A stretch of 64,000 bases of DNA from Pandoraea sputorum (lineage in GTDB: Bacteria > Pseudomonadota > Gammaproteobacteria > Burkholderiales > Burkholderiaceae): positions 2,666,001 through 2,730,000 of the forward strand of contig NZ_CP010431.2 of NCBI RefSeq assembly GCF_000814845.2, written 5' to 3'. Each line of letters begins with the position of its first letter. Positions within the stretch are counted from its first letter, which is position 1. The position numbers were made by a program, and so were the translations under genes. Below the pieces are notes generated by a model, which was not told the origin of the DNA, did not search any database, and worked only from the letters and a program-made list of their open reading frames with translations. Shown in pieces: positions 45,740 to 60,797 of this stretch.

Positions 45740-45753
45740 TTGATGTGCGTCAA
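45740..45753. promoter_or_regulatory. Fnr-type box, shared by MBL nuclease and universal stress gene
   Basis: TTGATGTGCGTCAA matches TTGAT-N4-ATCAA at nine of ten positions. Possible -10 boxes stand 48.5 bases away on both sides: TACCGT (45795) and minus-strand TATGCT (45698). This is the spacing of a site centred near -61.5. Confidence 0.75.
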
Positions 45754-45880
45754 GGAGGGGACACATGTCAGCTCACGCTTAAGCCGGGTTGGACTACCGT
45801 CTAATCGCAACGTCGACCATCGCCGCGTATCGATACCTGCGGCACAGTCGGAACGAGTCAAACTCAGCGAGGACGACATA

Positions 45881-46384
45881 ATGTCTCATCGAATCCTGCT
45901 CGCCATCGACGGCAGCGAAACCTCCTGGCACGCCTTGCGCGAAACGATCCGATTTGCCATGCCGGACGATGTCGTCAGAGTCGTCAACGTGATCGACGAT
46001 CCGTTCGCCCACTATCAATCCGCGTTTTCTTCGTACATCGACCTCGAAGCCGTGAGAGAGGCGTTGATCGCGGAGAGTCAGGAGACGTTAACCACCGCCT
46101 ACAAGCGGCTGCATGAAGAAGGTATTCAGACGGATACCCGCTCCATCGACCTACGGACGTGGGGCGGCACTATTGCTGGCGCCATTATTCGTGAAGCCCG
46201 GCGTTGGCAAACCGACCTCCTGGTCCTTGGCACGCATGGACGCAAGGGCGTTCGCCGCATGCTGCTCGGCAGTGTGGCTGAGCAAGTCCTGCGGCACTCG
46301 CATCGCCCCGTCATGCTGGTCAAAGAATCCACGACGCTGCCTACGGGGGCGGCCAGCGTACCGACTGCTGTCGCGGAGAATTGA
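45881..46384 (+). CDS. Universal stress protein
   Basis: UspA-fold protein of 167 residues. It starts 'ILLAIDGSETSWHAL' and has the ATP-binding motif 'GTHGRKGVRRMLLGSVAEQ' followed by 'HRPVMLVK'. The ATG at 45881 starts the domain exactly; the frame extends back without support. Four bases before the next usp gene: operon. Confidence 0.9.
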   Translation: MSHRILLAIDGSETSWHALRETIRFAMPDDVVRVVNVIDDPFAHYQSAFSSYIDLEAVREALIAESQETLTTAYKRLHEEGIQTDTRSIDLRTWGGTIAGAIIREARRWQTDLLVLGTHGRKGVRRMLLGSVAEQVLRHSHRPVMLVKESTTLPTGAASVPTAVAEN

Positions 46385-46388
46385 CACC

Positions 46389-46856
46389 ATGTATGAACGA
46401 ATTCTGGTTGCCATCGATGGCAGCCCCACGGCGGACACCGCCTTCGACTACGCGCTGTCGCTTGCGAAAGCACGTAAGGCGAAATTGCATGTGTTGTTTG
46501 TCGTCGATATTCCTGTTGCCTATATCAGCGACGCGGACCCGTTTCCCTTCATCGAAGCGTTGCGAATTCAGGGGAACAGCATCCGGGAGCGAGCCATGAA
46601 GCGCCTGAACGACGAGAAGGTCGCCGGCGACGTCGAGATCCGTGAGCTCCTGCCGCTCGGCGGAGACGTCGCGTTTCAGATCAACGCCGCAGCCGAAGAA
46701 TGGCAGGCCGACCTGATCGTGATCGGAACCCACGGCCGACGAGGCGTGCGACGTCTGACGTTGGGAAGCGTGGCGGAAAACTGCGCCCGGCAGGCGCAGC
46801 GGCCAGTCATCCTTATCCCGCCCCCCGGGACGGAGGAATTCGCCGAAGTGTTGTAA
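46389..46856 (+). CDS. Universal stress protein
   Basis: UspA-fold protein of 155 residues starting 'MYERILVAIDGSPTADTAF' and with 'GTHGRRGVRRLTLGSVAE' plus 'RPVILIPPP'. It is second in the 45881 operon and distinct in sequence from the first, not a recent duplicate. Confidence 0.9.
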   Translation: MYERILVAIDGSPTADTAFDYALSLAKARKAKLHVLFVVDIPVAYISDADPFPFIEALRIQGNSIRERAMKRLNDEKVAGDVEIRELLPLGGDVAFQINAAAEEWQADLIVIGTHGRRGVRRLTLGSVAENCARQAQRPVILIPPPGTEEFAEVL

Positions 46857-46915
46857 TCCGCCAATGCGCGAAGACTTGCGCTGCCCGGGAGTCGCGCGTG
46901 TAGAATCGATTTCAT

Positions 46916-46937
46916 GGATGTCCGGGCATGGACATCC
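46916..46937. promoter_or_regulatory. Inverted repeat before the response-regulator gene
   Basis: Perfect 8-bp arms GGATGTCC / GGACATCC with 6-base spacer, ending 35 bases before the response-regulator start. ATGTC/GACAT arms recur before the fnr gene (47650). May be an operator or a hairpin ending the usp transcript; no T-run. Confidence 0.45.
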
Positions 46938-46972
46938 CGAAACGACGTACTACACGATCCAAAGGCGGACGC

Positions 46973-47617
46973 ATGATTCGCATCATCGTGACAGACGATC
47001 ACACGCTGGTACGTGCCGGATTGCAACGTATTCTGGCAGGCACCGGCGATATCGAAATCGTAGGGGAAGCCTCGAACGGAGCGCAAGCGCTGGCGCTGCT
47101 GGGGGATACGCCGTGCGATGTCCTGTTGCTCGATTTGTCGATGCCCGGGCGCAGCGGCGTCGATCTTATCGCGCAGATCAAGGCGTCGTTTCCCCACCTG
47201 ACCATTCTTGTCCTCACAATGCACGGCGAAGAGCAGTACGCTGTGAGAGCGCTCAAGGCCGGTGCAGCGGGTTATCTGACAAAAGAGAGTGCGCCGAACG
47301 AACTGGTGAGCGCCGTACGCAAAGTTCACGACGGTGGGGTTTACCTGAGCCCCTCGATGGCGGAGCGAATCGCCCGGGATCTATCCTCTGCGGCCACCGA
47401 AGGCCCGAGTTTCCGTCGTCTGTCCGACCGCGAGTTCGATGTATTCCTGATGCTCGCCCGAGGGCTGACATTGGGCGACATTGCTGGCCGCCTTTGCGTG
47501 AGTACCAAAACGGTCAGTACCTATAAGGCACGCGTACTGCAAAAGCTTCAACTCAGGAGCCAGACCGACCTGGCGCATTACGCTATCCGCCACGATCTGC
47601 TGCGCGACAAACTCTGA
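46973..47617 (+). CDS. NarL/LuxR-family response regulator
   Basis: Two-domain regulator of 214 residues: receiver domain with phosphoacceptor D54 in 'VLLLDLSMPGRSG' and the lysine switch in 'AGYLTKES'; C-terminal LuxR-type helix-turn-helix 'LGDIAGRLCVSTKTVSTYKARV'. Its most likely partner is the histidine kinase encoded at 49595-51577, with Fnr and an alcohol dehydrogenase gene in between. In Mycobacterium the comparable DosR pair governs dormancy genes. AAAGGCGG precedes the ATG. Confidence 0.9.
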   Translation: MIRIIVTDDHTLVRAGLQRILAGTGDIEIVGEASNGAQALALLGDTPCDVLLLDLSMPGRSGVDLIAQIKASFPHLTILVLTMHGEEQYAVRALKAGAAGYLTKESAPNELVSAVRKVHDGGVYLSPSMAERIARDLSSAATEGPSFRRLSDREFDVFLMLARGLTLGDIAGRLCVSTKTVSTYKARVLQKLQLRSQTDLAHYAIRHDLLRDKL

Positions 47618-47649
47618 GGCGCGCACTGTAGTCCTTTGCCTACAGGCTG

Positions 47650-47667
47650 TCATGTCGGCTGACATGA
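47650..47667. promoter_or_regulatory. Inverted repeat before the fnr gene
   Basis: Arms TCATGTC / GACATGA with a 4-base spacer, 88 bases before fnr. Shares the ATGTC..GACAT half-sites of the repeat at 46916, with shorter spacing. Confidence 0.45.
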
Positions 47668-47754
47668 GATCGCGCCCGTCGCTTATTTTTTTTCCTCGCT
47701 TCGTCTCCGATACTTCAGACGTGATGACACGACGCTGAATTGCCGGAGTTTGCC

Positions 47755-48543
47755 ATGCATGCCATTTCCCGCCAACTGGACACCGTCCCCGTCGAAGCCC
47801 CTCAACACGTGAGGGTTCACCGCGCCTTCGACGTCGTCGAATCCGCAAGCCCAAGATGTAGCACTTGCCTGCTGCGCCAGTTCTGTCTGGCCGAAGGACT
47901 CAATGATGAGTCGATTCGCCGTCTGGACGGCGTGACACGTGTTCGGCGCACAGTTCGGCGCGGCGAAGTGCTGTTCCGCCCGGGGGACGCGCTTGAGTAC
48001 ATCTATGCCGTACGTGCGGGTTCGTTCAAGACGGTGTTGACACACCCAGACGGACGCGAGCAAGTCACCGGCTATCTGCTTGGCGGAGAGTTGCTGGGTC
48101 TGGGAGGCATTGCCAGCGGTCGATATGTCTCCGAAGCCGTCGCTCTCGAAGACAGTCAGGTCTGCGCAATCCAGTTCGCAGAATTGGAGGCCGTTGCCGC
48201 GAAGGTGCCGGTCGTGCAGCACCAGCTTCACCGACTGATCGCCGCGGGCATCGTGCGCGAACAACAACAGTTGCTTCGACTGGGAACCGCTCGCGGGGAG
48301 GCCCGACTGGCGAGCTTTTTGCTGGACGTATCGTCGCGGCTGGCCGCCCGGGGATACTCGCCCAACGCATTCCTGCTTCGCATGACGCGCGAGGAAATCG
48401 GCAGCTTTCTTGGTTTGCAACTTGAAACCGTCAGTCGCATGTTTTCCCGCCTCCAGGCACAGGAAGCGTTGCGGGTACGCCAACGCGAAATCACGCTGCT
48501 CGATACGCAGCGACTGGCTCAAATGGCGAATGCCGTTCAGTAA
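47755..48543 (+). CDS. fnr: Fnr-type oxygen-sensing Crp-family regulator
   Basis: Global regulator of 262 residues. Four cysteines match the [4Fe-4S] ligands of E. coli FNR in spacing exactly: C35-x2-C38-x5-C44 and C137, 93 residues after C44. A cyclic-nucleotide-fold sensor domain is followed by the winged helix 'TREEIGSFLGLQLETVSRMFSRLQ' with the ExxSR-type recognition helix that reads TTGA half-sites. The island around it carries many such sites, so it is the prime candidate regulator. The ATG at 47755 is preferred over 47740. Confidence 0.92.
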   Translation: MHAISRQLDTVPVEAPQHVRVHRAFDVVESASPRCSTCLLRQFCLAEGLNDESIRRLDGVTRVRRTVRRGEVLFRPGDALEYIYAVRAGSFKTVLTHPDGREQVTGYLLGGELLGLGGIASGRYVSEAVALEDSQVCAIQFAELEAVAAKVPVVQHQLHRLIAAGIVREQQQLLRLGTARGEARLASFLLDVSSRLAARGYSPNAFLLRMTREEIGSFLGLQLETVSRMFSRLQAQEALRVRQREITLLDTQRLAQMANAVQ

Positions 48544-48571
48544 TCGCGCCACGTTCACGGAGCACGATGGC

Positions 48572-49567
48572 ATGCGAGCGATGCAACTATCCAAGGCTGA
48601 CGGCACGCTCAGACTCGTTGATATTCCCGTGCCGACCCCAACGCCTACGCAGGTGCTGATTCGTGTGAGCGTCTGTGGTGTTTGCCGCACCGACCTGCAT
48701 GTCGTGGACGACGAATTGCCGGGTGTTCCGGATGGCATCATTCCCGGTCACGAAATTGTGGGGATTGTCACCGCTACAGGGCCGAACGTCCGGGACCTGC
48801 AAATCGGCGACCGTGTCGGCGTGCCATGGCTGGGATCGACCTGTGGATGTTGCCGCTTTTGCCTGAACCACAAGGAGAATCTCTGCGAAGCAGCGCGATT
48901 TACCGGCTATACGCTCAACGGTGGTTATGCCGAGTATGTCGTCGCCGAAGCTCAGTTCACGTTCAAGCTCCCCGATGCCTACGATGACGCGACCGCCGCG
49001 CCGCTGCTGTGCGCCGGTCTCATCGGCTACCGGTCCCTGAGCATGACCGGCGACGCACGGCGTCTGGGGATCTACGGATTCGGTGCTGCGGCGCATCTCA
49101 TTGCGCAGATTGCGAGCGCTCAGGCACGCGAAGTGTATGCCTTCACCCGGCCCGGCGACAACGAAGGCGCGGCGTTCGCCTTGTCGCACGGCGCCAGTTG
49201 GGTTGGCCCGAGCGACGCGGATCCGCCCGTGCCGCTGGACGCCGCCATCATCTTCGCGCCGGTCGGCTCGCTGGTGCCTCAGGCGCTCGCGGCCGTAGAC
49301 AGGGGAGGGGTCGTCGTTTGCGCAGGCATTCACATGAGCGACATCCCAAGGTTTGCCTACCGACTGTTATGGGGCGAGCGTCAGGTGCGCTCCGTCGCGA
49401 ATCTGACGCGAGCGGACGGTCTGGCCTTTCTCGCCCTGGCCGAGAGCATCGCGCTGAAAGTGGCCACGACAACATACCCGCTCGAAAAGGCCAACGCAGC
49501 ACTTGACGACCTGCGCCGCGGTGCCATTTCGGGGGCTGCTGTGCTTCAAGTGCGGCCTGCTGCGTAG
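48572..49567 (+). CDS. Zinc-dependent alcohol dehydrogenase
   Basis: Medium-chain zinc dehydrogenase of 331 residues. Catalytic zinc residues are in 'VCGVCRTDLHVVDDELP' and 'GHEIVG'; the structural zinc cluster is 'CGCCRFCLNHKENLC'. The nucleotide loop is 'GIYGFGAAAHLIAQ', a slight departure from GxGxxG. Likely a fermentative or aldehyde-reducing enzyme under low oxygen. It starts 28 bases after fnr. Confidence 0.87.
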   Translation: MRAMQLSKADGTLRLVDIPVPTPTPTQVLIRVSVCGVCRTDLHVVDDELPGVPDGIIPGHEIVGIVTATGPNVRDLQIGDRVGVPWLGSTCGCCRFCLNHKENLCEAARFTGYTLNGGYAEYVVAEAQFTFKLPDAYDDATAAPLLCAGLIGYRSLSMTGDARRLGIYGFGAAAHLIAQIASAQAREVYAFTRPGDNEGAAFALSHGASWVGPSDADPPVPLDAAIIFAPVGSLVPQALAAVDRGGVVVCAGIHMSDIPRFAYRLLWGERQVRSVANLTRADGLAFLALAESIALKVATTTYPLEKANAALDDLRRGAISGAAVLQVRPAA

Positions 49568-49594
49568 ATATCCGCCCGCGCTCAATGCGCTGAG

Positions 49595-51577
49595 TCAAAG
49601 CGCTGAGGGCGGCGTCGACGCGGTGGGTTCCATCGGGATGACGGTGGTCACCATGGTGCCGCCCTCCAACGGGCTGCGGACTTCCAGCGTCCCGCCGAGC
49701 AGGCGGGCCCGCTCCCGCATGCTGATGAGCCCCAGGGCATCCGGTTTCGGACGCGTCGGCGGCAATCCTCGCCCATTGTCGGAAATACGAAGTCTGCACT
49801 CTCGGTCGCAGGACAATTCGACCGTGATCGCGGTGGCATGCGCGTGCTTGGCAACGTTGTTCAGGGCCTCCTGCACGATACGGAACAAAGTCGTCGCCAC
49901 TGCCGGCGCGACAGCAGGTAACCCGTGTGTGCCCGTCACATCGACGGCCACGCCATAGCGACGTGAAAACTCCTGCGCGTACCATTCGATTGCCGGACCG
50001 AGGCCCAGATCGTCGAGCATCGGTGGACGCAGATCGGCTGCCATCTGGCGAACTGCGCCGACCATGCCGTCGATCGATTGTTCGATGCGCTTGACGTCCG
50101 CCGACATAGCAGGCTGCCCGTCCAGCGCTTGTCTGAGCATCGCCGCGTCCATTTTCAATGCGGTGAGACGTTGACCGAGATCGTCATGAAGTTCTCGTGC
50201 GATACGGGACTTTTCGTCTTCGCGAACCTCCTGAAGTCGTGCATTGAGTTTCTCGAGTTCGTGGCGGGATGTTTGCAGGGCGCTCGCCAATTGACGTTGC
50301 TCAGTGACGTCTCGCAACACGACCGTAAAGAATTTGCCGCTGGCGTCAGCACTCTGTGAAATGGATGCCTCCATCGGAAACTCCTCACCGTCCGCCCGCA
50401 AGCCCCAGAGTGGACGACCGCGCCCCATCAATCGCTCCGACACTCCGGTCGCCCCGAAGCGTTCGATGTGCTGAAGGTGGGCGTCGCGGAATCGTTCGGG
50501 GATGAAACGTCCAATCGGCTCCCCGATCACCTCCATGGCGCTGCACTTGAAAATACTCTCGGCGGTCGGGTTGAATATCTGGATTCGCTGCTGGGCGTCG
50601 ATGGTGATGATCGCCTCGCGAACCGACTGAATGACGCTAAAGAGTCGGCTTTCGGAGCGTTGCTTGCCGATCGCTTCCCGTTCGTTGACGGACATGGCGT
50701 GCCGACGGGAGAGCAGGGCCACGACCCAGGCAAGTATCGTGATAATGCTCATCAAAATGCCGGAAGCAAGCGCCCAATTGGCGACGCCTGCGCCGCGCAA
50801 TGCAGCAAACTCGCCCGAGGCCGTGTAGGCCAGTTCCAGCGCTGGCCGGTCCGCGTAGGTAACGTGTGCGACCGTCCGATAATCGACCGGCGGTCGAGGC
50901 TCTGCCGGCGCGCGAGGCGAGAGGCTGTCGAAGATCTGTTGCGCAGGCCCCTTGTCGCCGTTCACGGCAATCGTCAATGTCAGGTCATGAAGCAGCGGTC
51001 CGATCGCCGCATGAACCAGCGTATCGACATTGGCGATGGCGTAAGTACAGTCCGCAGACAAATCCTTGCTCGTCATAAAGATAAGTGATGGCGGAGTACC
51101 GGACACCGTGGCACCGGCGAACAGGCGTTCCCGAACGTCAGGGCCGGCGGGAAGGCGAACGCGGGCGCGGGTGCCGAGCACCGGTTCCCCGCTAGGTGAG
51201 TAGCCGGACGTTCTAACGATTTCCTCACCGGAGCGTTCGCACTTGCCGAAACTTATTAACCCCGGCAAACGTTCGGATAGCTTCATCCCTTTGATGTAGT
51301 CCATCCAGCGGGTGTCGTCGGACTGAGGCGTAGCCGCAGTGAGGTCGGACGCGCCATGCAAGGCGTCCCGGTAAGCGGTCAGTGCTATCGAAAGCTTGTC
51401 GGTTGCCGCGCTTGTGCGCAAGGCAAAACGCGCATCGACATTGTTCTGAAGCGCTGTCCGAACGGCGAGCCAGTTGGCCAGCGCAACAACCACACACATC
51501 ACACAGAGCATGGCGATGATCACAGCGTCCGCCCTGCGGCGTGAAGCGAATTGCGTACTGCGAAGCGTTCTGTCCAT
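49595..51577 (-). CDS. Sensor histidine kinase with CHASE-like, PAS and HisKA_3 domains
   Basis: Membrane kinase of 660 residues. An N-terminal helix (~20-41) and a second helix (~262-285) bracket a periplasmic CHASE-like sensor ('FALRTSAATDKLSIAL', 'ISFGKC'). A PAS domain follows ('SVREAIITIDAQQRIQIFNPTAE'), then the dimerisation domain with phospho-accepting H464 in 'IARELHDDLGQRL', and the ATPase with 'EALNNVAKHAHAT', 'ISDNGRGLP' and 'GLISMRERARLLGG'. This NarX/DesK class pairs with NarL-type regulators such as that at 46973. It is convergent with the alcohol dehydrogenase at 48572. Confidence 0.9.
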   Translation of the reverse strand: MDRTLRSTQFASRRRADAVIIAMLCVMCVVVALANWLAVRTALQNNVDARFALRTSAATDKLSIALTAYRDALHGASDLTAATPQSDDTRWMDYIKGMKLSERLPGLISFGKCERSGEEIVRTSGYSPSGEPVLGTRARVRLPAGPDVRERLFAGATVSGTPPSLIFMTSKDLSADCTYAIANVDTLVHAAIGPLLHDLTLTIAVNGDKGPAQQIFDSLSPRAPAEPRPPVDYRTVAHVTYADRPALELAYTASGEFAALRGAGVANWALASGILMSIITILAWVVALLSRRHAMSVNEREAIGKQRSESRLFSVIQSVREAIITIDAQQRIQIFNPTAESIFKCSAMEVIGEPIGRFIPERFRDAHLQHIERFGATGVSERLMGRGRPLWGLRADGEEFPMEASISQSADASGKFFTVVLRDVTEQRQLASALQTSRHELEKLNARLQEVREDEKSRIARELHDDLGQRLTALKMDAAMLRQALDGQPAMSADVKRIEQSIDGMVGAVRQMAADLRPPMLDDLGLGPAIEWYAQEFSRRYGVAVDVTGTHGLPAVAPAVATTLFRIVQEALNNVAKHAHATAITVELSCDRECRLRISDNGRGLPPTRPKPDALGLISMRERARLLGGTLEVRSPLEGGTMVTTVIPMEPTASTPPSAL

Positions 51578-51721
51578 CGATCGCCCCGATTCAAGAGTGA
51601 TTCAAGCGTTTTCGTGCGGTAGGTAGGCTAGTTGTATCACCGTTCTCCTGCGTTTCCCATACGCATCAATCCGCAATGTCTACGGCCGCTGGCAGGGATA
51701 TGGGACCGACCGATGGTGGCC

Positions 51722-51735
51722 TTGACGCTTATCAA
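51722..51735. promoter_or_regulatory. Fnr-type box upstream of universal stress gene
   Basis: TTGACGCTTATCAA (nine of ten conserved positions). A -10-like TACTGT begins at 51757, 28.5 bases from the box centre, the spacing expected for a site near -41.5. The gene start is at 51796. Confidence 0.78.
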
Positions 51736-51795
51736 AGGCACCCCGACGCTCTGCACTACTGTTCAGAGATGACATCACGTCTCAGGAGCATGGCC

Positions 51796-52638
51796 ATGAC
51801 TTTCCGCACGTTACTCGTACATGTCGACAATAGCGATCGGTGCCGCGCCCGGGTTGAACTGGCGGCTGACTTCGCCTATCGATTCCCTGCCCATCTGACG
51901 GGCATCTACCTGCCGTTTCATCCTCCGGGCTTTCCCGATGTGACGGCCATGGGCGGCACCGGACTTCCGCCGCCGCCTGCGCCCGAGAGCGACCCCAAAC
52001 GCCTCGCTCAGGCAGAACAGATGTTCTCGGAAGTGTGTCGACGGCAGGACGTCAGCCCGGAATGGATTACGCCGCGCTATGAAGAAAGCTCCGAAATGCG
52101 GACCCACGCCCGGTATGCGGATCTCGTGATCGTTGGACAAGAGGATCGTTCCGACCCCGAGTCCTCACCGACGATCGGATTTGTCGCGTCGGTCGTGCTC
52201 GGAGGCGGGCGACCGGTATTGATTCTCCCGTATGCGGGAAAGCTGCCCACGGCGTTCAATCACATTCTTGTCGCGTGGGATGGCGGCCGCGAAGCCGCGC
52301 GTGCCGCCGCCGATGCCATGCCGTTTCTGCGCTCGGCGAAAGCGGTCGACGTGATGCATGTGAGCCGGGTTGCTCGTCCGGACGATCTGGGCCCCATACC
52401 CGGCATGGACATCGCCATGTATTTCGCGCGGCATGGTGTCAACGTCACTGTGACACCGGAGTGTAGGACAAACGATGTCGCGATTGGCGAGGCGTTACTC
52501 TCGCGCGCTGCCGACCTGAACGCCGACCTCATCGTCATGGGCGGGTATGGGCATTCGCGCATGCAGGAGTGGGTGCTGGGTGGCGTGACCCGCACCATGC
52601 TCGAATCCATGACGGTTCCTGTGCTGATGTCGCACTGA
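51796..52638 (+). CDS. Universal stress protein, tandem-domain
   Basis: Protein of 280 residues with two Usp domains. The first (1-~145) is degenerate and lacks the glycine motif. The second starts 'HILVAWDGGREAARAA' and ends 'GGYGHSRMQEWVLGGVTRTML'. The ATG at 51796 is 8 bases after AGGAG; the ATG at 51790 is too close to it. Preceded by a well-placed Fnr box. Confidence 0.88.
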   Translation: MTFRTLLVHVDNSDRCRARVELAADFAYRFPAHLTGIYLPFHPPGFPDVTAMGGTGLPPPPAPESDPKRLAQAEQMFSEVCRRQDVSPEWITPRYEESSEMRTHARYADLVIVGQEDRSDPESSPTIGFVASVVLGGGRPVLILPYAGKLPTAFNHILVAWDGGREAARAAADAMPFLRSAKAVDVMHVSRVARPDDLGPIPGMDIAMYFARHGVNVTVTPECRTNDVAIGEALLSRAADLNADLIVMGGYGHSRMQEWVLGGVTRTMLESMTVPVLMSH

Positions 52639-52662
52639 ACCTCAGCAATGCGGAGTAACGCC

Positions 52663-53706
52663 ATGAAAGCCCTTGTATTCCACGGTCCGAAGCAGATCAC
52701 GCTGGAAGACCGGCCGACCCCCGAAATCCTGGCGCCCACCGATGCCATTGTGAGGATTCGCAAGACGACGATTTGCGGTACGGATCTTCACATCCTGAAG
52801 GGGGACGTTCCCACCGTGACACCGGGCCGCATTCTTGGGCATGAGGGCGTTGGGGAAGTGGTGCAAACCGGTGGGGCGGTCACATCCTTTAAGGCCGGAG
52901 ACCGGGTGCTGATCTCGTGCATTTCATCCTGCGGAAAGTGTCCCGCGTGCCGCAAGGGCATGTATTCCCATTGCGCCGTGGGCGGGTGGATTCTCGGCAA
53001 TCGTATTGACGGAACACAAGCCGAATACGTCCGCGCGCCTTATGCGGACACCAGCCTCTACCACGTGCCCGCCAGCGTAGACGACGACACGCTGGTCATG
53101 CTGAGCGACATCCTGCCGACCGGCTTCGAGTGCGGCGTTCTGAACGGCAAGGTTCAGCCGGGCAGCAGCGTTGCCATCGTCGGGGCGGGGCCGATCGGGC
53201 TGGCGGCATTGCTCACGGCGCAGTTCTTCAGCCCGGCTCAGGTGATCGTTATCGATCCGGATATCGCACGGCTGGAAGTGGCCTTAAGGCTCGGTGCGAC
53301 GGCCATCGTGTCTCCGGAAAAGGAGGACGCCGCCGCTTTCGTCAACAGCCTGACAGGCGGGCAGGGGGTCGACACGGCCATCGAGGCGGTCGGCGTGCCT
53401 GCGACATTCGAACTCTGCGAAGCGATTGTGGCTGCCGGGGGCACGATTGCGAACGTCGGTGTCCACGGTCGGAAGGTAGACCTGCATCTCGAATCCCTAT
53501 GGGACAGGAATATCAGCATCACAACCCGGCTGGTCGACACCGCCGCAACGCCCATGTTGCTCAAAACCGTCGAGTCAGGGCGGCTCGCGCCGGGTGTCCT
53601 GATCACGCACCACTTTTCGCTCGCCGATATTCTCGAGGCCTATCGAACCTTCGGTGACGCGGCGAACACGCATGCGTTGAAAGTGATCATCACACCGAAG
53701 GCGTAG
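52663..53706 (+). CDS. Zinc-dependent alcohol dehydrogenase
   Basis: Medium-chain zinc dehydrogenase of 347 residues: 'ICGTDLHILKGDVP', 'GHEGVGEV', structural zinc 'CGKCPACRKGMYSHC', nucleotide loop 'VGAGPIGLAALL'. Of the secondary-alcohol/isopropanol-type branch by style. It begins 24 bases after the usp gene, likely the same Fnr-controlled operon. Confidence 0.88.
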   Translation: MKALVFHGPKQITLEDRPTPEILAPTDAIVRIRKTTICGTDLHILKGDVPTVTPGRILGHEGVGEVVQTGGAVTSFKAGDRVLISCISSCGKCPACRKGMYSHCAVGGWILGNRIDGTQAEYVRAPYADTSLYHVPASVDDDTLVMLSDILPTGFECGVLNGKVQPGSSVAIVGAGPIGLAALLTAQFFSPAQVIVIDPDIARLEVALRLGATAIVSPEKEDAAAFVNSLTGGQGVDTAIEAVGVPATFELCEAIVAAGGTIANVGVHGRKVDLHLESLWDRNISITTRLVDTAATPMLLKTVESGRLAPGVLITHHFSLADILEAYRTFGDAANTHALKVIITPKA

Positions 53707-53756
53707 CGCCCGACTTGCCCTTAGGCGCCCGCGTAGTGCGCCGTCGGCGAAGAAAT

Positions 53757-54665
53757 TCACCGGCGGCTGGCCAGTTCGTCAAGCAAGTCACCAAGCGCCT
53801 CACGCACGGCCGGTGTCACATCGATGGCGTTCGACGCGTGGGGCACGGTATTACAGGTCACGACCGATCCGGCACCTGCGGCGATCAGTTCGTCTACCCC
53901 GATCCCGTCGAACAGCCCGTGCACCGCGATACACACGGGACTTCCGAAGCCCGCTTTGACCAACGCGCCAATCGCGGCGAGCATCGTTTGCCCGCTCGCG
54001 AGAATGTCGTCCACGATCACCGGCTGGCGATGCGCATACGCGGCTGGCACATGTAGTTCAAGGCTAACCTGCCGATCGCCCTGTCGGGTCTTGTGGGCCA
54101 CGACCGACGGCGCGCCGATTCGCCCCGCGATCTGCGCTACCCACGCGGCGCTTTCCGTATCCGGGCCGACAATGAGCGGATCGGTAACGTTCGCGGCGAT
54201 CCACGCGGCCGTCGCGGTCGCGCTGTGGGCAGAGCGCAGCGGAATCGTATAGACGGCGCAAAGCGATGGCAGGCGGTGCAAATGCGGTTCAACCGCGATC
54301 AGACCATCGAACCAGCTACTGAGCAACCGGCCGAAGCTGTTAGCCGATACCGATTCCCCCGGTCGAAAACGCGCATCCTGACGCAAGTAGCACAGGTATG
54401 GCGCGATCAGGATCACCTCACGCGCGCCAAGGTCTCGCGCCGTGTCTGCGGCAAAGAGGAGCGGCAGCAGTTTCGCGTCAGGCCGTTTCAACGAGCAGAC
54501 GATAACGATCGACTTTCCGCTCAGCGGCCCGTCAAGCGTGACAAGTTGCTCGCCATCCGGAAATCGATGGATCAGCAAGCGTTGCAAGGGACATTCGACG
54601 AGTCCGGCGAGCACCCGGGCAAACGATTCGTTTCCGGGCATAGCGTAAATGGCGACGTCTTTCAT
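53757..54665 (-). CDS. Ribose-phosphate pyrophosphokinase-like protein
   Basis: PRPP-synthetase-family protein of 302 residues: 'HRFPDGEQLV', the catalytic-region 'PYLCYLRQDARF', and the PRPP-binding loop 'VIVDDILASGQTML', altered from the usual VDDIxDTG. It is shorter and divergent from housekeeping Prs, so a specialised paralogue. Its ATG overlaps the stop of the nucleoside phosphorylase by one base, implying a linked function in ribose-phosphate and nucleotide salvage. Confidence 0.85.
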   Translation of the reverse strand: MKDVAIYAMPGNESFARVLAGLVECPLQRLLIHRFPDGEQLVTLDGPLSGKSIVIVCSLKRPDAKLLPLLFAADTARDLGAREVILIAPYLCYLRQDARFRPGESVSANSFGRLLSSWFDGLIAVEPHLHRLPSLCAVYTIPLRSAHSATATAAWIAANVTDPLIVGPDTESAAWVAQIAGRIGAPSVVAHKTRQGDRQVSLELHVPAAYAHRQPVIVDDILASGQTMLAAIGALVKAGFGSPVCIAVHGLFDGIGVDELIAAGAGSVVTCNTVPHASNAIDVTPAVREALGDLLDELASRR

Positions 54666-56326
54666 CAGGCCCTCACACAGACAATGTCCGGAAAGCGGTT
54701 TGCATACTCGAATGCATATTCGAGTTCACCGGGACTCTCCGCATAGATGGTAAAAAGCGGCTGCCCCGCGCCGACTACCGTGCCGATGGGCGATTCAAAC
54801 ACCACCCCGGCACGCTTCGCGAGGGGAGCACCGGCAAGCTTCGCGACGCGCGACAGTTGCCGATTGTCTACGGTGGTGACAACACCAGCGTGGCGAGCCG
54901 TTATCGGCTTGCTATGACGGCCTACGACAGGCTCCAGCATGCCGCCCTGAGCTTCACAGATGCGCTGAAACTGTTGCCATGCGAGCCCGCTGATCAACAC
55001 TCGGCGCGCCATCTGTGCCCCTTCGCCCGGCAACGCCTTGCCGCCGGCTTCCAGGATCCGTCCTGCAATCTCTACGCTCTTGGTCATCAGATCCATCGGT
55101 GCCCGGGCGCGATTCTGCAGCACCGCCAGTATGTCGCGGGCTTCGAGACTGGGCCCGATACCTCGCCCAACCGGCTCTTTGCCCTGGCAGACGTACGTGA
55201 CGACCTCCAGTCCAAGCGCGCGTGCGATGGTACGCAGTCGTTCCGAAAAGCGCGTGCTGGCGTAGTCCGAGCGAATCTTTGTGGTAGGGCCGACCGGAAT
55301 ATCGATCAGGACGTGCGTCGCGCCGACGGCAAGCTTCTTCGACAGAATCGAGGCGATCATCTGCGCCTCGCTGTCCAGTTCCAGGGGGCGCTCCACCTGT
55401 ATCAAAATGTCGTCGGCCGGACTCAGATCCGCCGCGCCACCAAAAACGACGCATCCCCCGACATCCTCGACGACACGGCGCATTTCGTCCGCACCGAGAT
55501 CGACGGGGGCTAACGTTGCCATGGTGTCGGCGGTGCCTGCGGGAGAGGTAATCGCACGCGAAGACGTTTTCGGCATGACCAGGCCCTGCGCCGTTACGAT
55601 CGCCACGACGATAGGTGTAGTCCGATTACCGGGCAGTCCACCAACGCTGTGCTTGTCCATGACCTTGTCGGCAGCCCATGTCAGCGTCTTTCCCGTTGCA
55701 ACCATGACCTGCGTGAGTGAGATGATTTCGTCGTCGGAAAGACGGTCGCCCGTGCACGCGCTCAGGAATGACGATATATGAATGGGCGAATAGCGTCCCG
55801 CAGCGATATCGCCGATCACTTCGCTTAATGCGTCGTATGTGAAGGGTTCGCCGTACATGCGCCCACGAACATGGCGAAAGGATTCCAGCGGTGGCATGTG
55901 ATGAACCCTCACCCAATCGCCTTCGGCAACATCCAGTGCTTGCAGTGCCGCCTCGCTCAAGCCGATCTCGTCGAGTTCCAGCCAATCGCCCGTGACCGTT
56001 TGCAACGTGGCCGCGATGGTCGTCTCACCATAGTCGAGCTGCAAACGCGTCTGCGCGGCAAAGCCTTCGGAACGGCAGACCTGGCTGTCGTGGCGCAGAT
56101 ATGCAACGGCCTCACGAAGGGTGTCGACGCTGACATGGCGCGCACGTAAGCACCGCCCGCAGGGCGGTACGGCGGAATCGGTCTTCGTTTGGCGGTCCGC
56201 CATCCCGGCCTCAGGATCGGGAACCGCAATCGGGCAAGCGCGTTGGACGTTCTCCGGCACGGGGCACCTTCCTTGCAGAATGGGACGCGGGGGCATGGCG
56301 GGAATCACGCTCACACGGACCGACAT
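54665..56326 (-). CDS. Thymidine/AMP phosphorylase-family enzyme
   Basis: Phosphorylase of 553 residues, longer than bacterial DeoA (~440), with an N-terminal extension of about 100 residues. This length resembles archaeal AMP phosphorylases, which split nucleoside monophosphates to base and ribose-1,5-bisphosphate. Motifs include 'DKHSVGGLPGNRTTPIVVAIV' in blocks, 'TSSRAITSPAGTADTMATLAPVDL' in blocks, and 'YASTRFSERL'. Coupled by a one-base overlap to the PRPP-synthetase-like gene. GAGG precedes the ATG; a perfect Fnr box stands 60 bases upstream. Confidence 0.85.
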   Translation of the reverse strand: MSVRVSVIPAMPPRPILQGRCPVPENVQRACPIAVPDPEAGMADRQTKTDSAVPPCGRCLRARHVSVDTLREAVAYLRHDSQVCRSEGFAAQTRLQLDYGETTIAATLQTVTGDWLELDEIGLSEAALQALDVAEGDWVRVHHMPPLESFRHVRGRMYGEPFTYDALSEVIGDIAAGRYSPIHISSFLSACTGDRLSDDEIISLTQVMVATGKTLTWAADKVMDKHSVGGLPGNRTTPIVVAIVTAQGLVMPKTSSRAITSPAGTADTMATLAPVDLGADEMRRVVEDVGGCVVFGGAADLSPADDILIQVERPLELDSEAQMIASILSKKLAVGATHVLIDIPVGPTTKIRSDYASTRFSERLRTIARALGLEVVTYVCQGKEPVGRGIGPSLEARDILAVLQNRARAPMDLMTKSVEIAGRILEAGGKALPGEGAQMARRVLISGLAWQQFQRICEAQGGMLEPVVGRHSKPITARHAGVVTTVDNRQLSRVAKLAGAPLAKRAGVVFESPIGTVVGAGQPLFTIYAESPGELEYAFEYANRFPDIVCVRA

Positions 56327-56385
56327 GCTGGTGCCTCAAAGCCTAGTCGGAATCCCGTAGAAGGTAGCGATTGGTTGTCATGACG

Positions 56386-56399
56386 TTGACGCGGGTCAA
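56386..56399. promoter_or_regulatory. Fnr-type box upstream of the phosphorylase operon
   Basis: TTGACGCGGGTCAA, perfectly symmetric TTGAC-N4-GTCAA. On the minus strand a -10-like TACCTT starts at 56366, 26.5 bases from the centre. Gene start is at 56326. Confidence 0.8.
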
Positions 56400-56445
56400 G
56401 CGGCCGGGCGTCACAGCCGCCAGGCTTTCCGAGGGTGCAAAGACA

Positions 56446-56459
56446 TTGAGATATGTCAA
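56446..56459. promoter_or_regulatory. Fnr-type box upstream of the candidate small RNA
   Basis: TTGAGATATGTCAA (TTGA-N6-TCAA). The -10-like TAAGGT begins at 56482, 29.5 bases from the centre, which puts the start near 56494 with the site at -41.5. The next coding gene on this strand begins only at 56786, beyond a terminator. Confidence 0.72.
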
Positions 56460-56493
56460 CCGTATGCCCGCCGATCGGCGCTAAGGTAAGAGC

Positions 56494-56623
56494 GTTGTCG
56501 GTGCCAGTCGACCGATGTTCGAATCACCCGATGTTGCCGAGTCAGTGGCACTTGCGCCCGTATACGGCCCCGTTCAGGGCGCAAGCAAGTTGGGATTACG
56601 CCCGCTTCGGCGGGCATTTTTTT
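56494..56623 (+). ncRNA. Candidate Fnr-activated small RNA (~130 nt)
   Basis: Bounded by a predicted Fnr-dependent promoter (box 56446-56459, -10 at 56482-56487) and a TTCG-loop terminator with seven T (56600-56623). No credible coding frame fits. Internal structure: stem GTGCCA (56501-56506) / TGGCAC (56546-56551); stem CTTGCGCCC (56551-56559) / GGGCGCAAG (56577-56585); then the terminator stem. The loop of the first stem holds the octamer CCGATGTT twice (56512-56519 and 56528-56535), which could be a duplicated pairing seed. A small RNA with an upstream Fnr site parallels FnrS of enterobacteria in logic, not in sequence. Transcript ends are inferred. Confidence 0.5.
56600..56623 (+). terminator. 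Rho-independent terminator with TTCG tetraloop
   Basis: GCCCGC-TTCG-GCGGGC followed by A and seven T. It lies 163 bases upstream of the next gene, with no coding gene ending before it on this strand. Confidence 0.93.
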
Positions 56624-56653
56624 GCGCGACGGTAGCGCACGCGCGCATTGACA

Positions 56654-56667
56654 TTGACGTGGCGCAA
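56654..56667. promoter_or_regulatory. Degenerate Fnr-type box upstream of the phasin-like gene
   Basis: TTGACGTGGCGCAA keeps one perfect half-site and a weaker second. TATGGT at 56689-56694, 28.5 bases from the centre, is a plausible -10. Confidence 0.5.
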
Positions 56668-56785
56668 GGCGCAATTGCAGCGCGCGATTATGGTTCAAGT
56701 CAGCATGCCTCATCACGCCTGCGCGTGAGGCCCGGGTCGATACCGACCCACCGCGGGCACGCAATTGGTTCAAGGAGCTCCGACA

Positions 56786-57301
56786 ATGCCTACCGAACAG
56801 AATCCGCCGCTGCACATTTACAAAGCGCCGATGCTCGCAGCGCTTGACGCACATCGCCACTGGCTCGCCAATCTCAAATGCCTGCGACAGGTGCAACTAC
56901 AGGCGGATGACGGGTTGCTTGAAGCGGACGATGCGTTTGGTGCCGAACTGGCCAATGCGCCAAGCTTTAATGCCGTCTTCACCAGCCAACTCGCGTTCAT
57001 CAACCGCCAGTTGGCGGTCCAGCATCTGATCTGGCAGGGGTGGTTGCAGATGGGAGCGCGTGGACCTGCCGCATGGGCGGAGCAGTACCAGTGCGCCGAA
57101 AAGGCGTGGCAGCACATTTTCTCGGATACGCTCGACGCCTCGTCGAATCGCGGCTCGAGTGCATGGGAAGCGTGGGGCGATTTGACGCGATCCGCGATGG
57201 ACGCCGTCAACACCCTGTCAGGAGAAACCGGGCGAACGCTGGCGCAGCGCCTGGCCTCGCTCCAAACGACACTCGTCGGCACGGCCAGCGAAAAACAGTG
57301 A
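56786..57301 (+). CDS. Phasin-like helical protein
   Basis: Protein of 171 residues, almost all helical and amphipathic ('FNAVFTSQLAFINRQLAVQ', 'EAWGDLTRSAMDAVNTLSGETG'). This pattern and context suggest a phasin or related granule-associated protein; phasins occur in the similar lxa locus. No diagnostic motif is certain. AAGGAG lies ten bases before the ATG; the in-frame TTG at 56765 is less likely. Confidence 0.55.
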   Translation: MPTEQNPPLHIYKAPMLAALDAHRHWLANLKCLRQVQLQADDGLLEADDAFGAELANAPSFNAVFTSQLAFINRQLAVQHLIWQGWLQMGARGPAAWAEQYQCAEKAWQHIFSDTLDASSNRGSSAWEAWGDLTRSAMDAVNTLSGETGRTLAQRLASLQTTLVGTASEKQ

Positions 57302-57368
57302 GGTCCGGGCGCAGCGTCGATCATGAATGACAACGGCCAGACGGACCGGATTATCCGAGGAGACTATC

Positions 57369-58409
57369 GTGACCCAAACCTACGACGACCGGCTTCACGC
57401 GTGGTGCGTTGACGAGCAGACGTTCCCAACATCGGCTTCTGCGCGCGAAAAGCTCCGGTTCTGTCTGCAATACGCGATTCTTGCCCCCTCGACTCACAAC
57501 ACGCAGCCGTGGCGCTTCGTCCTGGGCGACGATAGTGACGATAGCGTGCTGCTGTGCGCGGATCGATCTCGAGGACTTCCCGTCAGCGACACTTACGACC
57601 GCGAACTGGCGATCAGTTGCGGCGCGGCCTTGTTCAATCTACGCGTCGCGCTCAGTCATTTCGGTTGTGCCTACGCAATCCGGATTTTGCCCGCGTCTGC
57701 CGAGCCCGATGTCATCGCCAGTGTTCAGCTTCTGGACGAAGGTTTCGTCGACCCTGTCATTGCAAGGCACTTCACCTCGATCTTGCGCAGAGTAACGAAT
57801 CGCCAGCTATTTGACGCAGCGCCGGTGCCCCAAGTCGTGATCGATCAGCTGTGCAAAAGTGCTGAGGCCGAGGGGGCTCGACTAACGCCTGTCGTTGACG
57901 AAAGCGACCGCCTGCGTCTGGCAGAACTGATCGATCGGGCGGATCGGGCGCAACTTGGCGATGCTCGCTTTCGCAGAGAACTTGCGTTGTGGGTCAGCGC
58001 GTCGCGCCGTGACGACGGCATGGCCAGCTACTCGTCGACAGAAAGCCATCTTCTCGACTTCGCGTCGCCGGTCCTTGCGTCCGTTGTCAGAACGTTCGAT
58101 ATCGGCGGCGGCATTGCCGCAAGCCACCGGCGCATCGTCCAGGGATCGCCGCTACTGGTGTGCCTAAGCACCCCCGCCGACAATCCGGAAAACTGGATCA
58201 TGGCGGGGCAGGCCATGCAGCGCGTTCTGCTCACACTGACGGACAACGGGCTGTACGCTTCGTTTCTCAACCAGCCGATCGAAGTCGATGCGTTGCGCGC
58301 CGATGTCGGTGCAGGCGCTTCGGATCATCCGCAATTGCTGTTGCGCGTGGGGTATGGCGCCTCGCAAGCGCACACGCCGCGCCGCAGCCTGGCGTCGGTC
58401 GTCTCCTGA
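57369..58409 (+). CDS. Nitroreductase-fold protein, Acg-like
   Basis: Protein of 346 residues of the FMN nitroreductase superfamily. 'ILAPSTHNTQPWRF' is the flavin-binding start, 'SRGLPVSDTYDRELAISCGAAL' (in blocks) the next, and 'RRVTNRQLF' follows. The style is that of Acg proteins, which in mycobacteria belong to the DosR dormancy regulon and may store flavin rather than catalyse. GTG start at 57369 with GAGGAG upstream; ATG at 57327 has none. It lies 67 bases after the phasin-like gene. Confidence 0.82.
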   Translation: MTQTYDDRLHAWCVDEQTFPTSASAREKLRFCLQYAILAPSTHNTQPWRFVLGDDSDDSVLLCADRSRGLPVSDTYDRELAISCGAALFNLRVALSHFGCAYAIRILPASAEPDVIASVQLLDEGFVDPVIARHFTSILRRVTNRQLFDAAPVPQVVIDQLCKSAEAEGARLTPVVDESDRLRLAELIDRADRAQLGDARFRRELALWVSASRRDDGMASYSSTESHLLDFASPVLASVVRTFDIGGGIAASHRRIVQGSPLLVCLSTPADNPENWIMAGQAMQRVLLTLTDNGLYASFLNQPIEVDALRADVGAGASDHPQLLLRVGYGASQAHTPRRSLASVVS

Positions 58410-58474
58410 CCTGTGTCGGTCATCCGTTCCGGCCCGATGTCTTTGCCGAGCGGGTCACGCAAGCGGGATCAGCA

Positions 58475-59782
58475 ATGACATCGGATCTGGCTAACGAACG
58501 CTCACGGACGCGCGTCGCGACGCTGCGCAGGCTTATCCGCGAGAATCCGCTTGCACGCATCGGACCGGGCATGATCACCGGCGTTGCGGACGACGACCCG
58601 AGCGGTGTCGTCACCTATTCGCAGGCGGGCGCGCAGTTCGGCCTGAATATGCTGTGGACCATGCCGCTGGCTTTTCCGCTCATGGCGGCGATGCAGCTCA
58701 TTTGTGCCCGTATCGGTCGCGTCACCGGCAAGGGCCTGGCGGCCAATATCGGCACGAGATTTCCGCCGTCGGTGCTTCGCGGGACTGTCGCGCTGCTGCT
58801 CGTGGCCAATACACTCAATATTGCAGCAGACCTCGCCGCTATGGGGGAGGTCGCAGAGTTGATCGTCGGTGTCGAGCGGCACTGGATGACGGTCGGTTTT
58901 GCGCTCGGCACGTTGTCGTTGCAGATATTCGTGCCATATCACCGGTATGTCGTCTTCCTCAAATGGCTGACGATGTCTTTGCTCGCCTATGCCGCCGTGC
59001 TGTTCACAGTGCATGTGCCGTGGCATACCGTGGCGCTGAGAACGTTTCTTCCCGAACTGAAGCTCGACGCGTCCGCAGCGGCGGTGGTCGTCGCTGTGTT
59101 CGGCACCACCATCAGTCCGTACCTCTTCTTTTGGCAAGCCTCGGAAGAGGTCGAAGACATGGCGCGCAATCGGGCTGCGCAGCCGCTGGTGGACGACGCG
59201 ACCGCCGCCGGACCCGAATTGCGCCGGATCGGATGGGATACCTGGAGCGGGATGTTTTACTCGGATCTGACGGCCTATTTCGTGATCCTCGCGACTGCGC
59301 TCACCTTGCACGCCGCAGGCGTGACGCGCATCGACACCGCAGCACAGGCGGCCAGCGCACTGCGCCCGCTGGCAGGGGATATGGCGTACGTGCTGTTCAG
59401 CATCGGCATCGTGAGCGTCGGGTTGATCGGCGTGCCGGTGCTTGCGGCGTCGGGCGCTTACGCGCTGGCCGAGTCACTGCATTGGGAGGAGGGGCTCGAG
59501 CGCAAGCTCACCGGTGCCAAGGGCTTCTACGGCATCATCGCACTGAGCATTCTGGTCGCGACCGGCATGCAGTTCACGACGATAAGCCCGATGAGAGCGC
59601 TCTTCTGGAGCGCGGTGATCAACGGCGTCGTGGCCGTCCCGCTGATGGTGATCGTGCTTGTGCTTGCCGCGAGTCGTTCGGTGATGGGCCAGTTTACGGC
59701 CCGTTGGCCGATCCTGGCGTTGGGGTGGATCGCGACAGGGGTGATGGGGGCAGCGGCGCTCGTCATGCTATGGCCTGATTGA
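58475..59782 (+). CDS. NRAMP-family transporter, divergent clade
   Basis: Membrane protein of 435 residues with about eleven helices. It begins the core with 'GPGMITGVADDDPSGVVTYSQAGAQFG' (in blocks): the metal-binding helix 1 motif DPGN of canonical MntH is replaced by DDPSG. 'TTISPYLFFWQASEEVED' is the helix 6 region, where the canonical MPH motif is also absent. Ion specificity therefore cannot be assumed to be manganese. Likely in the operon starting at 56786. Confidence 0.83.
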   Translation: MTSDLANERSRTRVATLRRLIRENPLARIGPGMITGVADDDPSGVVTYSQAGAQFGLNMLWTMPLAFPLMAAMQLICARIGRVTGKGLAANIGTRFPPSVLRGTVALLLVANTLNIAADLAAMGEVAELIVGVERHWMTVGFALGTLSLQIFVPYHRYVVFLKWLTMSLLAYAAVLFTVHVPWHTVALRTFLPELKLDASAAAVVVAVFGTTISPYLFFWQASEEVEDMARNRAAQPLVDDATAAGPELRRIGWDTWSGMFYSDLTAYFVILATALTLHAAGVTRIDTAAQAASALRPLAGDMAYVLFSIGIVSVGLIGVPVLAASGAYALAESLHWEEGLERKLTGAKGFYGIIALSILVATGMQFTTISPMRALFWSAVINGVVAVPLMVIVLVLAASRSVMGQFTARWPILALGWIATGVMGAAALVMLWPD

Positions 59783-59832
59783 GAGACGCCGCCACCCCGT
59801 TGCTTCAATGTGCCGCACAGGGCGCCGTCGCG

Positions 59833-60660
59833 TCAGTGAGACAACAATACCGGTGTGGACATGTGCTTGAGCAGCGTGCGGGTGGCGCCTCCGAATACGA
59901 GCTCCCGTGTCGGTCCATGTCCGTAGGCACCCATGACGATCAGATCGGCCTGATAGGCTTCTGCGACCGACAGCAGTTGTACGCCGTCGCTGGCTTCGGT
60001 GTCTTCCCTGATCGACACTGGCGTAGCGCGCAAGCCGTGCGCCTCCATCAATCGCACGATGTCGTGAAGCGAGGGATCGTCCTCGCCCGGCGCGCGGTCG
60101 ATGCTGACGATCTGAATGTCCTGGGCGCGTCCGAGCAACTGCCAGGCGTCGCCGATCGCACGCCGAGCCTCGCGCGAGCCATTCCACGCTACGACAATGC
60201 GGCGGATTTCGCGAGGCAGCGTCACGTTGTGCGGGACGCCCATGACGGGAACACCGGCCCACCGAATGACGTCGCCCAGCCCATCGAGACCTAACGCAGC
60301 GACTCCGCCCGGCGCATCCGGTTGACCGACGATGCAAAGGTCGGTGGCACGCGCGGCATTCGCGAGGAGCGTCGGCGCTGCACCGTAGGGCGTGCGCCAA
60401 TCGCCAACGATATCCGCCTCGGCGCACAACTTCGAGAAGAGATGCTCAGCCGCCTGGAGTGCCGTACGCGAATGCGCCTCGGTCTGAAAATGCTCGCCCG
60501 ACGACTGAAGCTGTCCGGAATGAACCGCCCCCGGACGGTGAGGTAAATAGATGCCCGAGAGACGGGCCTCGTGTTGTCGCGCCAACTCGGCGCTAAAGCG
60601 CAGCCGCGCCGCCCCCGTCGCGGTGTCGTCCACGTGAACGCAGATTTTCCGTAGGCTCAT
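59833..60660 (-). CDS. Universal stress protein, tandem-domain
   Basis: Protein of 275 residues. First domain 'ICVHVDDTATGAARLRFSAELA' is degenerate; second has 'IVVAWNGSREARRAIG' and ends 'GAYGHGPTRELVFGGATRTLL'. Similar in layout to the gene at 51796. CAGGAG precedes the ATG. Shares the Fnr box at 60784, with minus-strand TATAAA at 60737-60742 as -10. Confidence 0.88.
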   Translation of the reverse strand: MSLRKICVHVDDTATGAARLRFSAELARQHEARLSGIYLPHRPGAVHSGQLQSSGEHFQTEAHSRTALQAAEHLFSKLCAEADIVGDWRTPYGAAPTLLANAARATDLCIVGQPDAPGGVAALGLDGLGDVIRWAGVPVMGVPHNVTLPREIRRIVVAWNGSREARRAIGDAWQLLGRAQDIQIVSIDRAPGEDDPSLHDIVRLMEAHGLRATPVSIREDTEASDGVQLLSVAEAYQADLIVMGAYGHGPTRELVFGGATRTLLKHMSTPVLLSH

Positions 60661-60783
60661 TTGATCGCTCCTGAGATGGGTGTCTTCCTGTTCACCCGAG
60701 GGTTGGCCGTGACGTCGAATCGTCACTGTCTGCCTATTTATAGCCGCGTGAGCACGATTCGCGGTGTCTGCCGATGCCTCCCG

Positions 60784-60797
60784 TTGACGTGCGTCAA
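60784..60797. promoter_or_regulatory. Fnr-type box between universal stress and BON genes
   Basis: TTGACGTGCGTCAA, perfectly symmetric. Possible -10 boxes are TAAAGT (60838) on the plus side and TATAAA (60742) on the minus side, 47.5 and 48.5 bases from the centre. Confidence 0.8.

Follow-up and report, generated by a model that had tools for sequence, protein, structure and literature searches.

The window analysed here, a stretch of 64,000 nucleotides from a Pandoraea genome of 5.74 Mb, carries what reads as a gene for a noncoding, structured small RNA controlled by FNR. This reading is strongly supported, because the FNR box, the promoter spacing, the stems and the terminator are conserved among homologues, and it upholds the preliminary description of the locus, which had proposed an Fnr-controlled small RNA; a four-cysteine FNR-type regulator is encoded 8 kb away. 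The gene is very probably switched on at low oxygen, and it would represent a new family of small RNAs, genus-restricted but of a known kind, for which the evidence for both the gene and its FNR promoter is strong. We consider it probable that the locus is a stand-alone gene activated by FNR in the class II manner, whose RNA pairs with mRNAs in trans via the sequence ACGGCCCCGU. The elements of the promoter and the transcript are the following (coordinates are those of the window).

56446 to 56459, plus strand: FNR box TTGAGATATGTCAA, a perfect match at the class II position (-41.5), read from the sequence.
56482 to 56487, plus strand: -10 element TAAGGT, placed 36 nt from the start of the box in each of the 11 FNR-linked homologues.
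56494 to 56623, plus strand: predicted small RNA of ~130 nt, from the inferred start to the end of the T-run, described by covariance model R1; transcript identity 0.75 over 11 homologues.
56600 to 56623, plus strand: intrinsic terminator GCCCGC-UUCG-GCGGGC-A-T7, found in the sequence; the GC stem pairs are kept in 12 of 12 homologues.

A box of the TTGA-N6-TCAA type and a -10 element at the right distance had been claimed at this locus, and both are present, with a spacing that is constant in all 11 FNR-linked homologues. As TAAGGT starts 36 nt past the start of the box, the latter is placed at -41.5 relative to a start predicted at ~56494. The -10 element is weak in this genome, matching TATAAT at 3 of 6 positions; among the 11 FNR-linked homologues (the window's own included) it is TAAGGT in five and TATCGT or TATTGT in six. 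The TAAGGT promoter is absent from the list returned by a promoter scan, because no -35 element is expected. The box is kept at the same spacing from a -10 element in 11 of 12 homologues, as either TTGAGATATGTCAA or TTGAGGAATGTCAA, and the twelfth, from Pandoraea sp. ASV26, lacks a box. Over 11 homologues, 12 of the 14 columns of the box are invariant, as compared to 3 of the 24 spacer columns and none of the 47 columns upstream. Mean pairwise identity among the FNR-linked homologues reaches 0.94 for the box and 0.79 for the -10 element, with 0.51 for the spacer between them; it is 0.75 over the transcript, 0.36 upstream and 0.41 downstream. Such sequence comparisons give good support to both the predicted transcript and its activation by FNR.

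All 11 FNR-linked homologues have a further exact FNR box, 59-81 bp upstream of the one described above, next to a gene that is transcribed away from the RNA in each of these genomes.

56386 to 56399, minus strand: second FNR box, an exact match, assigned to the divergent thymidine phosphorylase gene.
54665 to 56326, minus strand: thymidine phosphorylase-like gene (NCBIfam NF003338, 641 bits), a conserved neighbour.

It could be argued that the boxes serve the divergent gene alone and that the RNA is made from an unrelated or constitutive promoter, as the box-less ASV26 homologue might suggest. However, the presence of two distinct boxes in every one of the 11 genomes, and the exact spacing of the -10 element from the nearer box in all 11, make such an arrangement highly improbable.

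The transcript ends in an intrinsic terminator whose stem spans 56600-56615 and is followed by an A and by T7 at 56617-56623, and the ATG of the next gene (56786) is 163 positions past the last transcript base. The TTCG/T7 terminator, the ~130-nt length and the 163-position distance given in the preliminary description all agree with these coordinates, and its view that the transcript holds no credible coding frame is borne out as well. No ATG is constant within the transcript, the commonest being present in 7 of 11 FNR-linked homologues. All 11 share two TTG triplets, which open frames 7-47 and 13-34 codons long; a ribosome-site-like sequence accompanies neither, save the second TTG in 2 of 11 homologues. 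These coding tests cover the plus strand, where the locus has the properties of a noncoding RNA with an intrinsic terminator. The constant TTG triplets, together with open reading frames that cross the region (110 aa on the plus strand and 146 aa on the minus strand), would be the grounds for supposing that the region encodes a small protein, but the lack of a constant ATG, the variable length of the TTG frames, their general want of a ribosome-site-like sequence and the single-base insertions and deletions among homologues render this supposition barely credible.

The predicted fold of the transcript is better than that of dinucleotide-shuffled sequences (z = -2.53, with 3 of 200 shuffles as good), and two of its six helices vary in a manner that preserves pairing.

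56497 to 56516, plus strand: 5' hairpin (helix 1) of the predicted fold; both-side changes in 2 of 4 consensus pairs.
56551 to 56585, plus strand: main stem-loop (helix 4), CUUGCGCCC...GGGCGCAAG; nine pairs, three with both-side changes.
56564 to 56573, plus strand: invariant apical element ACGGCCCCGU, the proposed contact site, identical in 12 of 12 homologues; its middle GCCC is predicted to be unpaired.

In a plain MAFFT alignment of 10 homologues, 3 of 33 pairs show changes on both sides that keep the pairing (1 of 4 pairs in helix 1 and 2 of 9 in helix 4), and in an alignment of 12 homologues fitted to the model, which is biased towards the modelled structure, the number rises to 5 of 33, with 96.7% of cells paired. 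The five double-changed pairs of the fitted alignment are located in helix 4 (three pairs; 95.4% of cells paired) and helix 1 (two pairs). Shuffled controls gave a mean of 2.3 +/- 0.9 such pairs, 2 of 500 reaching five, and slid alignments gave 0-2. Helices 5 and 6 are invariant, variation in helix 2 is confined to a single cell, and in helix 3 no pair changes on both sides and 91.7% of the cells are paired; helices 2, 3, 5 and 6 therefore contribute no evidence of covariation. Of the five covariation measures, one did not exceed the shuffles: further pair types numbered 15, as compared to 15.5, with 436 of 500 shuffles as high. The predicted main stem covaries, and the internal stems of the preliminary description, on whose conservation in relatives, along with that of the octamers, it had staked its reading, are kept across the 12 homologues.

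The same description had singled out a repeated octamer in the first loop as a doubled seed. The two copies of CCGATGTT do exist in this genome, at 56512-56519 and 56528-56535, but the octamer occurs twice in just 1 of 11 FNR-linked homologues, namely the window's own sequence, and the CCGAT of both copies is predicted to be paired rather than looped. The second copy belongs to a conserved CCCGAT, the pairing partner of a 3' UUGGG segment, and the first is variable; by a rough estimate, about 0.1 repeated 8-mers are expected by chance in ~130 nt. We have therefore ruled out the doubled octamer as a seed. The invariant element of the RNA is instead ACGGCCCCGU, which forms the top of the main hairpin, and we infer that this hairpin top is a candidate contact site.

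Among the genomes searched, the predicted small RNA is found only in the genus Pandoraea. BLAST searches of 61 genomes with a 211-base query matched 29, and in 11 (own included) the match extends past the terminator; no match was obtained in 24 genomes from other families of the Burkholderiales. A 22-base piece that contains the terminator stem (56600-56621) recurs exactly elsewhere in the genome and in many congeners, so BLAST matches confined to 56600-56621 are meaningless. Covariance model R1, built from 10 of the 11 BLAST homologues, found strong matches (E <= 6.7e-17) in 12 of 32 Pandoraea genomes. Five more had weak matches below E 0.001: two are genomes with a second, ~77-nt RNA described below, and in the other three the match was set aside because it reads as a terminator. 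A family-wide search, performed with stricter filters on a sample of 299 genomes, gave no strong match in the 267 genomes outside Pandoraea, so that the covariance search proposed in the preliminary description finds the RNA, in this sample, in Pandoraea only. Weak matches occurred in 19 of the 267 (best, 32.9 bits); the 16 of these loci that were examined read as terminators, several of them behind gene ends, and were discarded, and ACGGCCCCGT is absent from all 16 loci examined out of the 19 matching genomes. An exact core pattern, which misses at least one known variant (a one-base deletion), matched eight records over the contigs of GTDB 220, all of them Pandoraea. The search for plasmid carriage of the small RNA gave no match.

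The neighbouring thymidine phosphorylase gene has the same distribution as the FNR-linked RNA. Orthologs with 70-100% identity are present in exactly the 11 of 32 Pandoraea genomes that have the FNR-linked RNA; the search matched 18 of the 32, four of which, at 40-41% identity, were left out of the count. Outside Pandoraea the gene was matched in 28 genomes, and at 16 loci from these 28 no exact FNR box was found that would mark an FNR-box small RNA beside it. Downstream of the RNA the surroundings are less constant.

56654 to 56667, plus strand: FNR-like box TTGACGTGGCGCAA, with one mismatch, before the next gene; read from the sequence.
56786 to 57301, plus strand: downstream gene, phasin-like by eye; a homologue lies next to the RNA in 6 of 11 genomes (own included).

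The product of the latter gene has no family match in Pfam or NCBIfam, and within ~1.5 kb of the RNA a phasin-like gene occurs in 6 of 11 genomes and a nitroreductase gene in 7 of 11, own included. These data bear on whether the RNA might instead serve the downstream gene as a 5' leader or attenuator, with a terminator that is read through conditionally. Such a role would accord with its location on the same strand and with its end 163 positions before the next ATG, but the phasin-like gene is beside the RNA in only six of the 11 genomes, it has an FNR-like box of its own (TTGACGTGGCGCAA, which may provide it with its own promoter), and the ASV26 homologue is located in a different neighbourhood. 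Because the downstream gene varies, a cis-acting leader is very unlikely, and we retain the reading of a stand-alone gene.

The surrounding region reads as an FNR-regulated island. The window contains six exact FNR boxes as compared to 0.58 expected, and the genome contains 49, as compared to 22 for a reversed control pattern. The cluster of boxes spans window positions 45740-60797 and continues to genome position 2743981, and at least one box (60784) sits between divergent universal stress protein (Usp) and BON genes. Nearby genes include four Usp matches, a BON protein, an alcohol dehydrogenase and a PRPP synthase-like gene, and the island also encodes a regulator.

47755 to 48543, plus strand: FNR-type regulator with a Cys-x2-Cys-x5-Cys motif and a distal Cys (four cluster cysteines).

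This protein, encoded 8 kb from the small RNA, scores 198 bits against the NF008365 Fnr model, under its cut-off of 228, and it aligns with structurally solved FNR regulators (E 3.6e-49), the distal cysteine included. Its proximity, and the fact that nine of the 49 exact boxes in the genome fall within the surrounding 32 kb, further support control of the RNA by FNR. A second FNR-type protein is encoded at genome position 3134615.

The homologue that lacks a box is from Pandoraea sp. ASV26 (G022; L097:6659-6792, minus strand), where R1 scores 78 bits. No exact FNR box is present in the 13 kb examined near it, and it begins ~35 nt behind an acetate kinase gene that itself follows a phosphoketolase gene; it may be an RNA derived from a 3' end. 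Three further Pandoraea genomes (G023, G025 and G029), whose thymidine phosphorylase is 53-55% identical, have another, putative RNA of ~77 nt with an exact FNR box at the same spacing. It has a hairpin top GCCCCG (loop AUCGCCCC in the one that was folded) and a terminator of the same type, and its loci are found beside frames for BON-domain and phasin-like proteins.

L096:2757-2881, plus strand: ~77-nt RNA locus.
L095:4601-4726, minus strand: ~77-nt RNA locus.
L094:4971-5095, minus strand: ~77-nt RNA locus.

A covariance model of the ~77-nt RNA, built from these three similar sequences only, recovers the three strongly. Its reported match is the window's RNA, at only 33-36 bits, in seven of the 11 FNR-linked genomes; of the other four, G018 is matched at another place and three give no match. 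Since unrelated loci in five non-Pandoraea genomes score 32-35 bits, common ancestry of the ~130-nt and ~77-nt RNAs is suggestive only. Altogether, 14 of 32 Pandoraea genomes have a thymidine phosphorylase of at least 53% identity (11 at 70-100% and three at 53-55%), and all 14 have a putative FNR class II small RNA with a GCCCCG hairpin top shortly before a similar terminator. We tentatively entertain, as a somewhat doubtful extension, that both RNA types form one fast-evolving superfamily that uses the GCCCCG top as a shared contact and acts as a dedicated RNA arm of the island, the ASV26 copy having been relocated to the 3' end of an operon for acetate formation.

In the preferred mechanism, falling oxygen would lead an Fe-S FNR protein, such as the one encoded 8 kb away, to bind the box at -41.5, where as a class II activator it would recruit RNA polymerase to the predicted start site, and the strong terminator would stop the RNA at ~130 nt. 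The RNA would then base-pair with mRNAs in trans, chiefly via the ACGGCCCCGU top, its U-rich end (seen as the T7 tail) would offer a site for Hfq, and the FNR regulon of the island would thereby gain a post-transcriptional arm. We infer the trans base-pairing action from the kind of gene. The genome contains 26 exact complements of the 10-nt ACGGCCCCGU, as compared to 37 for a control, and one of them is the other strand of the gene itself. A possible start triplet is close to 13 of the 26; 11 of these 13 are inside longer frames and the other two are L137 and L139, and no clear gene-start site emerged. When the RNA was scored for duplexes with 73 start regions, taken from the window and from 17 kb past it, 82 of 100 shuffled RNAs did as well, a weak test because the program permitted long loops.

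The lack of a target signal in these narrow searches also fits an FNR-induced RNA that binds a protein or another RNA as a sponge or decoy and uses its hairpin top as the recognition site. A main hairpin with an invariant 10-nt top would suit such a role, and there is a weak, sub-threshold match to rsmX. CsrA sponges have several GGA motifs. The rsmX score, however, is far under threshold (21.4 bits as compared to the 56 needed) and the transcript has a single GGA, so that membership among the CsrA/RsmA sponges was rejected; moreover, the T7 tail suits an Hfq-dependent pairing RNA. We judge the sponge or decoy explanation to be unlikely and favour mRNA pairing.

Rfam contains a model of FnrS. 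Across the whole window there is no Rfam match at gathering score, and FnrS is not among nine weak matches up to E 5, which led us to reject membership in a homologous FnrS family. FnrS, which had been named as the functional precedent for the RNA, is thus a fair functional analogue only. The enterobacterial FnrS is described as a small RNA of the FNR regulon that is made without oxygen and that, when overproduced, represses over 30 mRNAs dispensable under such conditions (PMC8139620). The Pandoraea RNA would likewise be an FNR-regulon small RNA, but it belongs to another genus. PhrS of Pseudomonas is controlled by Anr. A second Pseudomonas small RNA, PaiI, is induced anaerobically in dependence on NarXL; both resemble the Pandoraea RNA in being tied to low oxygen, and the comparison of their sequences with it is through Rfam only. 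Low-oxygen small RNAs have been described in enterobacteria (PMC8139620) and Pseudomonas. NcS25, a small RNA of Burkholderia, Paraburkholderia and Pandoraea that is complementary to a Shine-Dalgarno site, shares with the present RNA its occurrence in Pandoraea, but it differs in being 84 nt long and adjoining a porin gene, and no link to FNR is mentioned in the available text (PMC10117139). An FNR-controlled Pandoraea small RNA was not found among the literature matches listed, and the accessible portions of papers on Burkholderia small RNAs do not mention one tied to FNR. The gene offers a precise, testable locus, promoter and candidate contact element. The island also invites comparison with the lxa locus of Burkholderia cenocepacia, which comprises ~50 genes induced by low oxygen, six of them for universal stress proteins (PMC9733578), and whose mutant survives anoxia more poorly (PMC3759415); the available parts of these two reports mention no small RNA for lxa. 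The likeness is by Usp content only: with four Usp matches near the RNA, the Pandoraea region resembles the lxa locus of this related lung pathogen (PMC3759415).
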